Shown: piece after piece, positions 1 to 28,520 of the stretch
How the letters are laid out: every line of letters starts with the position of its first letter
Numbering within the stretch: the stretch's first letter is position 1
Source: Mucilaginibacter pankratovii
Lineage (GTDB): Bacteria > Bacteroidota > Bacteroidia > Sphingobacteriales > Sphingobacteriaceae
Assembly (NCBI RefSeq): GCF_014773265.1
Contig: NZ_JACWMY010000003.1
Location: 248,001-312,000, forward strand
Length of the DNA stretch: 64,000 nt
Direction: 5' to 3'
The notes under the pieces: generated by a model
The model's database searches: none
The model's input: the letters and a program-made list of their open reading frames with translations, nothing else
What the model was told of the DNA's origin: nothing
Made by a program: the position numbers and the translations under genes

Positions 1-454
1 TCTGCACCCCTAAAAAGCCAAGTGCCACAGCGCCGCCGGTATCACCGGAAGTGGCTACCAGTACATCCAGTTGTTTTTCGCCATCCTTTAAAAAGTAGCT
101 CATAACGCGGCTCATAAAGCGTGCGCCAAAATCTTTAAAAGCCAGTGAGGGACCGTGGAAAAGCTCCAGCACGTTTACCTTTTCTTCCAGTTTTACAACC
201 GGGGCATAAAAGTTAATAGCGTCTTTAATTAAAGCTTTCAGGTCTTCTGCCGGGATATCATCGCCGAGCAGGTTTTTAGCTACATGATAGGCAATTTCGG
301 GCAGGGTGTACTGATCGAGGTTGTGGATGAATTTATCGCCCAGGTGTGGGATCTCCACGGGCATATAAAGGCCCTTATCCTGTGGCATGCTGTTAAAAAC
401 GGCCTCTTTAAAGCCAACCCTTAGTTCGGTATTATTGGTACTGTAGAATTTCAT
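1..454 (-). CDS. thrC: Threonine synthase, N-terminal part (cut by window edge)
   Basis: Threonine synthase converts O-phosphohomoserine to L-threonine with pyridoxal phosphate, the last step of the pathway. Only the first 151 codons lie in the window; the open frame runs off position 1. The start ATG is at 454 and the protein begins MKFYSTNNTELRVG. HGPSLAFKDFG at about residues 100-110 carries the expected PLP lysine (K107), and ATSGDTGGAVA at about 134-144 is the phosphate-binding loop of the family. It is the last gene of a thrA-thrB-thrC operon, 125 bp after thrB; that gap holds a perfect inverted repeat. The identification is secure; the C-terminal part cannot be judged. Confidence 0.95.
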   Translation of the reverse strand, partial: MKFYSTNNTELRVGFKEAVFNSMPQDKGLYMPVEIPHLGDKFIHNLDQYTLPEIAYHVAKNLLGDDIPAEDLKALIKDAINFYAPVVKLEEKVNVLELFHGPSLAFKDFGARFMSRVMSYFLKDGEKQLDVLVATSGDTGGAVALGFLGVQ

Positions 455-579: not shown

Positions 580-1566
580 CTACCCTATCACCCTCGGCCC
601 TGCATCGTTTATAGTTGATACATAAATATTGGAGCCTATTTTGATGCTGGTTAAATGTTTTTGTAATTTTTGTGTGATGCGTTTGGCTGTCTCCTCATCG
701 CGGGTAAAAGCAAACACTGATGGCCCCGAACCGGAGATGCCGAAGCTTACCGCGCCCATTTCCATAGCCATTTCGCGCATGATGTAAAAATCGGGGATGA
801 GCATGCTGCGCACCGGTTCTACCAGCACATCTTTCATGCTGCGGCCAATGAGGTCGATATCCTGCATAAACAGGCCGCTTACCAACCCGGCAATATTACC
901 CCATTGGGTAACGGCATCTTTCATAAAGATCTTATTGCGGATGATCTGCCTGGCCTCGCGGGTGGGCACATCCACATCCGGGAAAACAATGGCACACCAT
1001 AAGCCTGCCGGATGCGGCAAACGCACTACGTCCAATGGCTCGTAGCTGCGGATGAGTACAAAACCGCCTAACAATGCCGGTGCAACGTTATCGGCATGGC
1101 CGTGCCCACATGCCATCTCCTCGCCCTTCATGGCAAAGGGAAGCAGCGTAGCAGCATCTGTATCGTCACCCAACAGGGTTTTGATAGCAAATAGCCCGGC
1201 AACCGTACTTGCCGAGCTGGAACCCAGCCCACTACCAATAGGCATTTTTTTGTGCAGCTCGATATCTAAACCAATGTCCATCCGGCCCACGCTTTGCAGG
1301 TAATGCTGTACGCTTACGCTCACCGTATTCTTGGCCGGGTTAAGCGGCAGGCGACCGTCATCGCCGGTAATTTTGCTGATGGTGATACCTGGTTTATTAG
1401 TGCGGCGCATGATCACCTCATCACCCGGCTCGTTTACGGCGAACCCCAGTACATCAAAACCACAAACCACGTTGGCAACAGTAGCGGGTGCGAAAACCTG
1501 GATGCTATCCAAAAGCTTTTGCGTTGTTACCATTGGTTGTTTTAAATCTTGTATATCGTTACTCAT
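580..1566 (-). CDS. thrB: Homoserine kinase
   Basis: A GHMP-family kinase that phosphorylates L-homoserine with ATP, feeding threonine synthase. The 328-residue protein has the GHMP ATP-binding loop PIGSGLGSSSAS at residues 109-120, a N-terminal FAPATVANVVCGFD segment, and a C-terminal FGISGSGPSVFAF motif, all typical. Length is normal. It lies 66 bp downstream of thrA and upstream of thrC on the same strand, so it is the middle gene of the threonine operon and should share the attenuator in front of thrA. The ATG start is followed by a short N-terminal extension of about 20 residues before the conserved part. Confidence 0.96.
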   Translation of the reverse strand: MSNDIQDLKQPMVTTQKLLDSIQVFAPATVANVVCGFDVLGFAVNEPGDEVIMRRTNKPGITISKITGDDGRLPLNPAKNTVSVSVQHYLQSVGRMDIGLDIELHKKMPIGSGLGSSSASTVAGLFAIKTLLGDDTDAATLLPFAMKGEEMACGHGHADNVAPALLGGFVLIRSYEPLDVVRLPHPAGLWCAIVFPDVDVPTREARQIIRNKIFMKDAVTQWGNIAGLVSGLFMQDIDLIGRSMKDVLVEPVRSMLIPDFYIMREMAMEMGAVSFGISGSGPSVFAFTRDEETAKRITQKLQKHLTSIKIGSNIYVSTINDAGPRVIG

Positions 1567-1632: not shown

Positions 1633-4083
1633 TCAATTCGCTCCCACATTTATCAAATCCGCAAACACACCGGCGGCGGTTACTTCGGCACCTGCGCCGG
1701 GGCCTTTTACTACCAGCGGGCGTTCTTTATACCTGTCGGTTGTGAACGAGATGATGTTATCGCTGCCGCTGAGCATATAAAAAGGGTGGTTCTCATCAAC
1801 CATTTGCAGGGTGATGGAGGCCTTGCCGTTTTCCAGTTTGCCAATGTAGCGTAACACCTTTTTGTCCTTTTCTGCTGTATCCTTTAAGTTTGCAAAGAAA
1901 GCATCTTCGCTTTTTAATGCAGCATAAAAATCTTCAACAGTTTGGGCCTCCAGGCAGGCTTTGGGCAATATAGCATCTATGTGCACATCGCTTGCCTCCA
2001 TTTCGTAGCCGGCATCGCGGGCCAGGATCAGCATTTTGCGCATGAAATCTTTGCCGCTCAAGTCATCGCGCGGATCTGGTTCGGTATAGCCTTTTTCCTG
2101 CGCTTCTTTTACTACGTCGTGGAAATTGGCATCGCCTTTAAAGTAATTAAAGATATAGGATATAGTGCCCGAGAGGATCGCTTCTATCCGCTGCACCCTG
2201 TCGCCGCTGCTCATCAAATCTTTTAATGTACGGATGATAGGCAGGCCGGCACCCACATTGGTTTCGTAAAAGAAATCGACACCATGGCGGCGGGCGGTAT
2301 CCCTAAAGGTTTTGTACTGGCTGTAACTTGCCGAGTTGCCTATTTTATTGCAGGTAACTACCGAGATATTCGATTTAAAAACCTCCTCGTAAATACTTAT
2401 AGGCGCAAGGCTGGCGGTATTATCAATAAACACACAATTGGGCAGGTTCATTTCCTTCATGTGATGGATAAAGGTTTTCAGGTCGGCCTCGTGATGCGAT
2501 TGCGCCAATTCATCTTCCCAGCTGTCGAGCGGCAAACCGTCGGCATTGAAAACCATTTTACGGGTGTTACTGATGCCTGCTATTTTAACCTGGATACCGT
2601 TGTTCTTTTGCAAAAACTCGCGGTGGGCATTCAGCTGATTGAACAGGGTTTTACCAATGTTGCCCGTGCCTAAACAAAAGGCATGAAGCGTTTTGGTGAG
2701 CTGGATAAAGAACGCATCGTGAACAGCATTAAGCGCTTTGGCCAGATCCGTCGCGGAAATGATAACAGAAATATTGTACTCTGACGAGCCTTGTGCTATC
2801 GCCCTTACGTTAATACCATTACGGCCAAGCGCGTGGAACAATTTACCACTTACGCCCGGTGTTTGTTTCATGTTTTCACCTACGATAGCTAATATCGCCT
2901 GCCCCTTTTCTACTACAAGCGGCTCCAGCTTATTGGCTAAAAGCTCCAGCTCAAACTCCTGCTCTATCAGCATTTGGGCCTTGCCAACATCTGTTGGCTG
3001 CACCGCAAACGTGATGCTATGTTCTGATGAGGATTGCGTAATTAAGATGATGTTGATCTGCTCTCTTGCCAGCAGCGAGAACAAACGGCCGCTAAAGCCA
3101 GATTTGCCTACCATGCCGCTGCCTTCAAGGCTGAGGATGCTGATGTTATTGATAGAGGAGATGCCCTTAATTGGTAGGTTAGAAGATTTACAATCATGAC
3201 GGATCACAGTTCCTGCAAATTCCGGCTCGAAGGTGTTTTTGATCACGATAGGGATCTTCTTCAAAAAGGCAGGGATCATGGTTGGTGGGTAAATAACCTT
3301 GGCGCCGAAATAAGAAAGTTCCATCGCCTCGGTATAAGTAAGCTCCTCCAGAGAGAACGCCTTTTTAACCATGCGCGGGTCGGCGGTCATCATGCCGTTC
3401 ACGTCGGTCCAGATCTGGATTTCCTGCGCATTTAGTGCCGAGCCAAAGATGGCTGCGGTATAATCGCTGCCGCCGCGGCCCAGCGTGGTGATCTGCCCGG
3501 CATCGTTACCGGCAATGAAGCCGGTTACGATCAAGAGTTTATCGCTATGCTCTTTATAAAAAGATTGGATAAGCAGATCGGTAAGTTCGAGGTTAACCCG
3601 GGCGTTGCCAAATGCACTGTCTGTTTTTATCAGTTCGGAGGCATCCACAAACATCGCCTCGGGGAAATGCTGCGCCGCTATCTTGCTGATCATCATCGCC
3701 GAACAGCGCTCACCATAACTTAGGATGGTGTCGCGGGTCTTGGCGGTAAGCTCTCTTAAGGTAAGCACACCCTGTAGTAACTCCTCTAACTGGTTAAAAT
3801 GAATTTTTAAGCGGGTGTAAGCCGGGTTTTGGTTTTGGATATCCAACAGGGCTTTTACTACTTCAAAGTGGCGGCGTTCCAGTTCGGCAAGCTCTGCCGT
3901 AAACTCTTTGCCTGCCGCTGCCCCTTCTGCCATAGAAATAAGCAGGTTGGTAATGCCGCTCATGGCCGATAATACTACCACCGGCTTGCTGCCGTTCTTG
4001 TTCTCTTCCTTTAAGATGTCGAGCAGTGTTTTGATGCTGTTTACCGACCCGACCGAGGTTCCCCCGAATTTTAGTACTTTCAT
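1633..4083 (-). CDS. thrA: Bifunctional aspartokinase / homoserine dehydrogenase I
   Basis: It catalyses the first and third steps from aspartate toward threonine: aspartate phosphorylation and NAD(P)H-dependent reduction of aspartate semialdehyde to homoserine. The 816-residue protein starts MKVLKFGGTSVGS, the aspartokinase signature, and has LGRGGSDYTA at 201-210. Tandem ACT-type regulatory segments follow at roughly 310-460. The dehydrogenase half begins with the Rossmann motif GTGNIGKTLFNQL near residue 467. This is the usual fused architecture and length. It is the first gene of thrABC. Upstream is a Thr/Ile leader peptide and a terminator, so expression is very probably controlled by attenuation; allosteric inhibition by threonine is expected from the ACT region but cannot be read from sequence alone. 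Confidence 0.97.
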   Translation of the reverse strand: MKVLKFGGTSVGSVNSIKTLLDILKEENKNGSKPVVVLSAMSGITNLLISMAEGAAAGKEFTAELAELERRHFEVVKALLDIQNQNPAYTRLKIHFNQLEELLQGVLTLRELTAKTRDTILSYGERCSAMMISKIAAQHFPEAMFVDASELIKTDSAFGNARVNLELTDLLIQSFYKEHSDKLLIVTGFIAGNDAGQITTLGRGGSDYTAAIFGSALNAQEIQIWTDVNGMMTADPRMVKKAFSLEELTYTEAMELSYFGAKVIYPPTMIPAFLKKIPIVIKNTFEPEFAGTVIRHDCKSSNLPIKGISSINNISILSLEGSGMVGKSGFSGRLFSLLAREQINIILITQSSSEHSITFAVQPTDVGKAQMLIEQEFELELLANKLEPLVVEKGQAILAIVGENMKQTPGVSGKLFHALGRNGINVRAIAQGSSEYNISVIISATDLAKALNAVHDAFFIQLTKTLHAFCLGTGNIGKTLFNQLNAHREFLQKNNGIQVKIAGISNTRKMVFNADGLPLDSWEDELAQSHHEADLKTFIHHMKEMNLPNCVFIDNTASLAPISIYEEVFKSNISVVTCNKIGNSASYSQYKTFRDTARRHGVDFFYETNVGAGLPIIRTLKDLMSSGDRVQRIEAILSGTISYIFNYFKGDANFHDVVKEAQEKGYTEPDPRDDLSGKDFMRKMLILARDAGYEMEASDVHIDAILPKACLEAQTVEDFYAALKSEDAFFANLKDTAEKDKKVLRYIGKLENGKASITLQMVDENHPFYMLSGSDNIISFTTDRYKERPLVVKGPGAGAEVTAAGVFADLINVGAN

Positions 4084-4090
4084 TATTGCG

Positions 4091-4132
4091 ATAAAAAATA
4101 AAAAAGCCTTCCTCTTTGCGGAGGAAGGCTTT
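4091..4132 (-). terminator. Attenuator terminator of the thr operon
   Basis: On the minus strand a 12-bp perfect stem (4103-4114 with 4121-4132, core AGCCTTCCTC / GAGGAAGGCT) with a 6-nt loop is followed by TTTTTTATTTTTTA, an intrinsic terminator ending only a few bases before the thrA ATG at 4083. The 5' arm and adjoining loop bases on the RNA (4120-4127) contain CTTCCTCC. This is exactly complementary to GGAGGAAG at 4171-4178 near the end of the leader peptide, so a competing antiterminator is available. Confidence 0.9.
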
Positions 4133-4166
4133 CATTTGGTTTGTCTTTATGTTTTACACCATACGA

Positions 4167-4232
4167 TTATCTTCCTCCAAGTTTTATCCCGGTGGTAATA
4201 ATTGTTGTAATTGTGGTGTTGTTAGTTGTCAT
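4167..4232 (-). CDS. thrL: thr operon leader peptide (Thr/Ile-rich, 21 aa)
   Basis: A 21-codon frame, ATG at 4232 and TAA at 4167-4169, contains 8 threonine and 4 isoleucine codons, with the central run TTITTIITT. It sits just upstream of the terminator in front of thrA. This is the layout of the enterobacterial thrL attenuator, where scarcity of charged tRNA-Thr or tRNA-Ile stalls the ribosome and lets an antiterminator form. The last codons (GGA GGA AGA) overlap the antiterminator half that pairs with the terminator arm, so a ribosome reaching the stop codon would mask it. The peptide sequence is unrelated to E. coli ThrL except for its composition. Function is inferred from composition and position, and the fit is very strong. 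Confidence 0.88.
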   Translation of the reverse strand: MTTNNTTITTIITTGIKLGGR

Positions 4233-4338
4233 ATATAATGTCGGTAAAGTAAGTAGATTATTTTTTAACAAACAAGGATTATTTTCATTTTTATTAAATC
4301 TCCGATATAATGTGTATTATTTGTAACATTAGCTCATT

Positions 4339-4920
4339 ATGAAACGGTATTTAATAACAGCAGTTTTGGCGCTTCTGCTTAAGTGTTCTCTTGCCCAGGA
4401 TGTAAAAGATTCGCTTGTATATAATCTGCCTATGGTGAATGATAAGCTAATCTATGCTGACACCGTTAAGGTAACAGGTAGCAAAGCCGTATTAGATAGG
4501 GTAGCCAATGCCTGGTTCAAAAACTACTTCAAAAACTATCGACCCTATCCGGCAGACCGAGAAGTTGATGTAGGCGCAGCTGTTTTTGACCAGGCCATGT
4601 TAGAGTACAAAGTGTCGCCCGGGCTGATAGCTATCGATTACTTCGCTGCGGTTTCTATAAAAATAACCAGTGGCAATAACTTTTACGCTTATAAAATTTA
4701 TGAGATTAGTTTCCGGCCAAAGAACGGCGTGCTGAATAAGATCGGTTATCAAAACGATCCGGACTATTTGATCAAGCTTTATAAAAAGAAACATTTAGGG
4801 TTGATAACCTCGATGAGCTTAAGCCGCGGGATGATAAGGGAATACCTGGATAAAATGAATACGGCAGTTATTGCCTGTATTGCATCGCTAAATAAGGCGA
4901 TGGCGAATAAAACGATGTAA
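4339..4920 (+). CDS. Exported protein, possible DUF4468-type
   Basis: A 193-residue protein with an N-terminal signal peptide (MKRYLITAVLALLLKCSLAQ, cleavage likely after SLA or AQ). The mature part (YADTVKVTGSKAVLDRVANAWFKN near residues 39-62, then a mixed alpha/beta segment) resembles the periplasmic DUF4468 proteins of Bacteroidota, but this is a weak pattern match made by eye. No catalytic motif is visible. It is transcribed divergently from the thr operon, and its ATG lies 106 bp from the leader peptide start, so the two promoters probably share that gap. No partner gene nearby suggests a role. Confidence 0.75.
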   Translation: MKRYLITAVLALLLKCSLAQDVKDSLVYNLPMVNDKLIYADTVKVTGSKAVLDRVANAWFKNYFKNYRPYPADREVDVGAAVFDQAMLEYKVSPGLIAIDYFAAVSIKITSGNNFYAYKIYEISFRPKNGVLNKIGYQNDPDYLIKLYKKKHLGLITSMSLSRGMIREYLDKMNTAVIACIASLNKAMANKTM

Positions 4921-28439: not shown

Positions 28440-28520
28440 TCGTAGCCAAATCCTCTCCAAAGGAGAAGACTTTAAAAGCTTTTTTGAACCCTCTCCTTTG
28501 GAGAGGGCAGGGTGAGGCCC
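28440..28520. repeat. CCTCTCC...GGAGAGG inverted pair
   Basis: CCTCTCCAAAGGAGAA on the left and CCCTCTCCTTTGGAGAGGG on the right, each self-complementary, separated by an A/T-rich spacer, in the gap before the EcsC gene. The layout resembles the CCCCCTGAAGGGGG doublets seen elsewhere in the window. Confidence 0.65.

Follow-up and report, generated by a model that had tools for sequence, protein, structure and literature searches.

The window analysed here, a 64,000-nucleotide (nt) stretch of the Mucilaginibacter pankratovii genome (contig NZ_JACWMY010000003.1, positions 248,001 to 312,000), carries the threonine operon thrABC at its left edge. Upstream of thrA lie a short open reading frame (ORF) rich in Thr and Ile codons, an intrinsic terminator and several complementary RNA segments, and this arrangement is very probably a real leader-peptide attenuator. 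The features of the locus, numbered within the window, are the following.

2..454, minus strand: thrC, threonine synthase, cut by the window edge (TIGR00260, 66.8 bits, below the cut-off of 167.1)
580..1566, minus strand: thrB, homoserine kinase (NCBIfam NF002288, 375 bits, cut-off 194)
1633..4083, minus strand: thrA, bifunctional aspartate kinase/homoserine dehydrogenase I, AK-HSD I (NCBIfam NF006959, 1050 bits, cut-off 726)
4102..4133, minus strand: intrinsic terminator hairpin of 13 pairs
4120..4127, minus strand: segment 3, CTTCCTCC, common to the antiterminator and the 5' arm of the terminator
4132..4140, minus strand: 3' side of the inner antiterminator helix (ACCA.ATGA), from a constrained fold
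4158..4166, minus strand: 5' side of the inner antiterminator helix (TCGT.TGGT), from a constrained fold, overlapping the conserved element UAUGGUGUAA
4154..4162, minus strand: mini-ORF ATG-GTG-TAA (start, one codon, stop) of uncertain function, 4 nt past the leader stop
4171..4178, minus strand: segment 2, GGAGGAAG, 5' half of the antiterminator, within the last leader codons
4190..4195, minus strand: segment 1, the last two Thr codons and a Gly codon (ACC ACC GGN), pairing with 4174-4179
4232 to 4167 (ATG to TAA), minus strand: leader ORF MTTNNTTITTIITTGIKLGGR
4244..4251, minus strand: promoter-like -7 box TACTTTAC, 19 nt upstream of the leader ATG

The first-pass annotation of this DNA had described a thrABC operon headed by a 21-codon leader frame at 4232-4167. 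The frame was recovered with all of its product codons, eight for Thr and four for Ile among the 21, which form a run in a short upstream ORF. Both thrA and thrB scored above their NCBIfam cut-offs, the edge-cut piece of thrC scoring below its own. The start codon of thrA is the ATG at 4083 (minus strand), and the terminator stem and U-rich tail proposed to lie beside it were found, 12 of the 13 pairs being Watson-Crick and one G-U. The tail covers approximately 4105-4093 and ends 9 nt upstream of the thrA ATG. Segment 2 is the exact 8-nt complement of segment 3, as had been claimed for 4171-4178 and 4120-4127. This 8-mer helix had been taken for the antiterminator; it is present in full and proved to be one part of a larger structure, since the inner helix and the pairing of segment 1 are conserved as well. 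The leader region as a whole folds with z = -4.5, a stability equalled in none of 200 shuffles, and the predicted energies of the terminator (-18.9 kcal/mol) and the antiterminator (-19.7 to -20.3 kcal/mol) are nearly equal. The sequence contains a mutually exclusive antiterminator, the 5' half of which would be covered by a ribosome at the stop codon and left uncovered by one stalled in the run.

Conservation was scored with a detector that asks in three steps for a terminator, then an antiterminator helix, then a Thr/Ile-rich leader ORF. The set consisted of 132 distinct thrA upstream regions from the family Sphingobacteriaceae, 91 from Mucilaginibacter and 41 from 16 other genus labels (g2-g4, g7, g10-g20, g22). 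Of the Mucilaginibacter thrA places initially without a locus, five were fetched, a partial match of genome G223 was left out of the locus set, and genera g5 and g8, where ThrA is only 48-50% identical, were set aside before the count. The successive steps were passed by 121, 118 and 117 of the family loci, as compared with 13, 4 and 0 of 1056 dinucleotide shuffles. Of 1649 other segments taken from the named loci, 56, 30 and 4 got through. Among the 16 non-Mucilaginibacter labels, 15 had one or more loci that passed strictly; g17, represented by one genome, passed only with a relaxed tail. A held-out set of 78 further non-Mucilaginibacter places, among the matches listed in a larger family search, was then scored with a bulge-tolerant terminator finder at thresholds slightly looser than those of the first detector. 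A terminator with a U tail was present in all 78 loci and the full design in 73, while 390 shuffles yielded 48 and 0, respectively. Conservation of the Thr/Ile codons and the terminator in relatives had been fixed beforehand as the refuting test, and the attenuator survived it (117/132 and 73/78). It is because the relatives keep the whole arrangement that we regard the element as very probably real.

The codon pattern was examined in 67 distinct 21-codon Mucilaginibacter leaders. Of the 603 codons at positions 6-14, 583 encode Thr or Ile, and the two residues frequently replaced each other at codons 7, 8, 11 and 12. Such natural exchange within the run is evidence for a switch that reads Thr as well as Ile. 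Conservation at the nucleotide level was seen at codons 13-15 (ACC ACC GGN) and 19-21 (GGA GGA AGA), which are largely kept; these are the two stretches of the leader that pair in the RNA.

In an alignment of 73 Mucilaginibacter leaders, the terminator was paired in 97.8% of the cells, and two-sided changes occurred in 41 cells, compared with 15.1 in column shuffles and 1-7 in slid controls. Sequence and covariation both point to an intrinsic terminator before the first structural gene. The pairing of segment 1 with segment 2, detected by RNAalifold on the same leaders, was kept in 98.4% of the cells (21-59% in slid controls), and that of segment 2 with segment 3 in 98.8%. The inner helix, UCGU.UGGU with ACCA.AUGA, was paired in 85.9% of the cells, whereas sliding the whole structure gave 39-66%.

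Outside Mucilaginibacter, segments 2 and 3 differ jointly between genera, for example as CGGGGC:GTCCCG, CGGGAC:GTCCCG, GAGGGAAGT:GCTTCTCTC, TATCGGGA:TCCCGATA and TCGGGAAGGT:GCCTTCCCGA. Shuffles are the control for this co-change, because segment 2 was selected as the best helix. We also carried out a partner-swap test on 20 loci with divergent terminator arms. Two of these, L203 and L213, belong to two other Bacteroidota families and combine Thr-run leaders with wholly different stems (CAGAAAGGT:GCCTTTCTG and CTGAAGTTGG:CCGACTTCAG); in each of them, none of the 129 swapped partners matched as well as the own one, whichever of the two segments was exchanged.

Several results weigh against this interpretation. 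Fifteen of the 132 family loci failed the strict detector, 11 having no terminator by the rule, three no helix and one no leader. A relaxed look at the 11 terminator-failing loci recovered a hairpin and helix in seven, and L137, L140, L144 and L145 were judged solely by eye. Two-sided changes were absent from the pairing of segments 1 and 2, which is therefore a case of conservation without covariation. They were also absent from the pairing of segments 2 and 3 in the 73 Mucilaginibacter leaders, because the 8-mer hardly varies there. The inner helix contains three pairs with two-sided changes, and the slid controls gave similar numbers. The partner-swap test was mixed, in that no locus apart from L139, L203 and L213 outdid every swapped arm. 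In most of the 17 remaining loci, the own partner did not fit best because the common family arm matches the leader end equally well or better, and for a few of them the relaxed finder had placed the arm incorrectly. Finally, the design is rare outside the family. Among 79 other thrA upstream regions, 39 from class and family searches (g5, g8 and other families, two genomes giving two loci each) and 40 from a phylum search (picked for diverse family labels among the matches listed), it was found only in L203 and L213, and the detector recognised none in g5 or g8.

Ribosome geometry is in accordance with the proposed switch. When the leader stop codon occupies the A site, the ribosome sits over segment 2, in agreement with the earlier claim that a ribosome at this position covers the antiterminator half. 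An A-site stall at any Thr or Ile codon up to Thr13 leaves at least 17 nt before the pairing segment; the distance decreases to 14 nt for a stall at Thr14 and to only 8 nt for one at Ile16, which is too near the switch to free segment 2. From these distances, a shortage of Thr- or Ile-transfer RNA (tRNA) should free segment 2 and let transcription pass.

We consider it highly likely that thrABC is controlled by a ribosome-mediated transcription attenuator of the classical type. From the sequence we infer a promoter, ribosome stalling, termination and a response of these events to Thr and Ile, in the following form. Transcription would begin just upstream of the 21-codon leader gene. Under a shortage of charged tRNA-Thr or tRNA-Ile, the leading ribosome would stall in the Thr/Ile run at codons 6-14 and mask segment 1 (ACC ACC GG), leaving segment 2 free. 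Segment 2 could then pair with segment 3, joined by the inner UGGU:ACCA helix, and RNA polymerase would continue into thrA. When Thr and Ile are both plentiful, the ribosome would reach the stop codon and cover segment 2; segments 3 and 4 would then pair as the terminator, stopping transcription about 10 nt upstream of thrA. In an untranslated leader, the 1:2 and 3:4 pairings could coexist, which would also lead to termination.

The search for a transcription start relied on the Bacteroidota promoter consensus, from which a TAnnTTTG-like box is expected. The position of box TACTTTAC predicts a very short 5' untranslated region (UTR) upstream of the leader, and the TTG at 4273-4275 is a candidate upstream promoter element. 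A loosened TAnnTTTG-like box, the pattern of which was picked after the sequences had been inspected, occurred within 45 nt 5' of the leader in 83 of 107 distinct family loci and in 327 of 2140 shuffles. The strict TAnnTTTG was present in only seven of the 107.

The spacer behind the leader holds the mini-ORF listed above. A mini-ORF of one to three codons was found in all 77 distinct Mucilaginibacter spacers and in 43% of shuffles. In the first set of other-genus spacers, [A/T]TG-NNN-stop occurred in 26 of 37 (4.6 expected), with three to five occurrences at spacings 1, 2, 4 and 5. The held-out spacers contained it in 34 of 66 (9.3 expected), with 18-24 also at spacings 0, 2, 5, 8 and 9. As 32 of these 66 spacers were without it, a start-NNN-stop mini-ORF was rejected as a family feature, and AUGG:CCAU pairing accounts for part of the signal. 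Between terminator and thrA, 12 of the 91 Mucilaginibacter loci carry the repeat GCCTCACCCTGCCCTCTCC or its variants (L006, L012, L013, L014, L016, L020, L027, L040, L045-L047, L061). The repeat starts at most about 20 nt past the last G-C pair of the terminator, as if it preferred such sites, and the window itself contains the 19-mer without mismatch at 28500-28518.

The closest known counterpart is thrL of E. coli (NC_000913.3, 190-255, with the terminator after it), which the same detector recognises. Both leaders have 21 codons bearing Thr and Ile, and in both, segment 2 lies inside the last codons, starting 53 nt after the leader ATG in the window and 54 nt in E. coli (segment 2 GGTGCGGGCT, obtained with the same code). 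In both, the terminator arm pairs with segment 2 and AK-HSD I follows downstream. The window leader differs in its stem sequences and its very short predicted 5' UTR, and it has the inner antiterminator helix and the UAUGGUGUAA element, unlike thrL. The near-equal geometry and the conservation in relatives support the earlier claim that the mechanism is that of thrL. Its companion, that the leader peptides are unrelated, was too strong as put: the two peptides are of equal length and share nine of 21 residues without gaps, yet 5.0% of permutations of the window peptide reach nine matches, so the resemblance demonstrates neither common descent nor its absence.

These likenesses could mean that the leader is homologous to thrL, carried with the AK-HSD operon as an ancient or transferred unit, instead of convergent. 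The same enzyme family heads both operons, the leader length, the offset of segment 2 and the shared residues fit this origin, and in a Thr_leader (Rfam RF00506) search of the whole genome (G000) the thrA leader ranked first among nine weak matches. We nevertheless consider homology unlikely, given how often permuted peptides match as well and given the detection of the design in only two of the 79 upstream regions from other families, g5 and g8. The Rfam score also stands against it. No gathering match to Thr_leader was returned by cmscan in the window, and a lax-threshold cmscan of 241 bases scored the leader at 36.5 bits, with the gathering score at 55. Of 148 class genomes searched with Thr_leader, 139 gave a hit at E <= 1, and the matches listed include more than 40 from other class genomes that score at least 36.5 bits. 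As Thr_leader matches 139 of 148 genomes and only one match exceeds the cut-off, 36.5 bits are no proof of kinship. That sole match (G168:C7:55202-55323, minus strand, 55.3 bits) lies on a contig other than that of thrA.

A different possibility is that the leader does sense Thr and Ile, while control is exerted by Rho, RNA decay or thrA translation instead of the intrinsic terminator. Thr-run leaders lacking a strong U-tract terminator exist elsewhere in Bacteroidota, so another mechanism may operate in the phylum. At this locus we judge it very improbable: all 78 held-out relatives have a strong terminator with a U tail, and its stem covaries while its arm matches segment 2. Least probable is an ordinary terminator between divergent genes with an accidental Thr-rich ORF, to which the divergent 193-amino-acid ORF at 4339-4920 and the terminator score of the hairpin on the plus strand might point. 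Conservation speaks against it: 73 of 78 held-out loci and none of 390 shuffles combine leader, codons, segment 2 and terminator, and the last leader codons differ in step with the terminator arm.

The terminator-poor leaders outside the family follow a second design, in which the stop codon of the leader lies in a hairpin loop. A Thr-rich ORF (at least three Thr in the last 14 codons) with its stop in the loop of a perfect hairpin was found in 18 of the 79 other thrA upstream regions and in two of 790 shuffles; requiring at least five Thr left 17 and one, respectively. The strict loci (L171-L173, L180, L181, L183, L211, L217, L220, L223-L225, L229, L231, L234, L236, L237, L242) carry six family labels (f14, f20, f32, f44, f49, f72). 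Inspection by eye added 13 similar loci in which the hairpin is weaker or the stop codon lies elsewhere (L161-L164, L169, L179, L182, L191, L192, L226, L230, L232, L233), and L188 is one more such case. The stems vary freely (ACCCC/GGGGT, ACGGG/CCCGT, AATCCGCT/AGCGGATT, ACAACCC/GGGTTGT, CCCGG/CCGGG). None of these leaders has a strong U-tract terminator; when they were examined as possible classical attenuators in disguise, a weak hairpin with a T-rich stretch downstream was present in 12 of 31 second-design loci, compared with 12.3% of shuffles and 117 of 117 loci of the first type. An Rfam scan of 20 second-design loci (E <= 0.1) gave a single match, to a CRISPR-repeat model, in L191 and outside the hairpin. 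Tentatively, Bacteroidota thr operons may keep a Thr-run leader and swap the RNA device, with the classical one in Sphingobacteriaceae and two further loci and the stop-in-loop form being an undescribed, widespread switch that senses a ribosome at the stop; we think this somewhat less probable than its opposite.

A further leader, at L165 (G149), stands 5' of a thrA with a GTG start whose product is 63% identical to that of the window. Its peptide, MTTIMSIMGDVQSWR, has only two Thr and several Met codons, and the complementary segments remain by eye. In the genome of the window, a His-run leader MDLYKQHHLHLHHHRPVMNR lies 5' of hisG (L260, G000:C3:134020-134562, minus strand). By eye, it has a stem at the end of the run, similar to the stop-in-loop leaders, and a downstream GTTTCTACGCGAAA stretch resembling the thr leaders L188 and L191 of other families. 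A His-rich ORF precedes hisG in eight of nine Mucilaginibacter upstream regions viewed, the window genome included. Inspection by eye of the ilvD upstream regions of four Mucilaginibacter revealed nothing obvious.

Lyubetsky 2007 and Lopatovskaya 2010 reportedly predicted attenuators in Bacteroidetes among other phyla, so a thr attenuator may have been predicted earlier. Full-text literature searches returned no thr attenuator in Bacteroidota in titles or abstract openings. Both of the above works are cited in an excerpt of PMC4833913. New in this analysis are the segment-1 pairing, the inner antiterminator helix, the promoter-like box and the family survey. Translation initiation in Bacteroidota is unusual, and the family-wide alignment could be used for probing the coupling of transcription and translation in this phylum.

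Three precedents make leader-peptide attenuation a known or suspected kind of control in Bacteroidota. In Flavobacterium psychrophilum, which shares the phylum with the window, it has been suggested for amino-acid operons, the leaders described in the excerpted text of PMC9723704 not including a thr leader. For Bacteroides thetaiotaomicron, a passage of PMC7366714 mentions short ORFs "reminiscent of leader peptides". The third is Bacteroid-trp RNA (Rfam RF01692), a curated cis-regulatory leader of Bacteroidota given in a table of PMC2864571; it was not among the cmscan matches at the thrA locus. A copy in the same genome (L267, G000:C30:23660-23778) scored 50.1 bits against a cut-off of 49 and has a leader, MKINTLNNNWWWLNENS, a terminator and a complementary segment. 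By eye, Bacteroid-trp RNA resembles the window element in its plan: regulatory codons (WWW) in a leader ORF are followed by a terminator hairpin, and a complementary segment is present. It differs in that the codons are for Trp instead of Thr and Ile, the leader stop lies within a hairpin and the sequence is unrelated. By comparison, the thrA leader of Mucilaginibacter shows the textbook design of the thr attenuator conserved at a great distance from E. coli.

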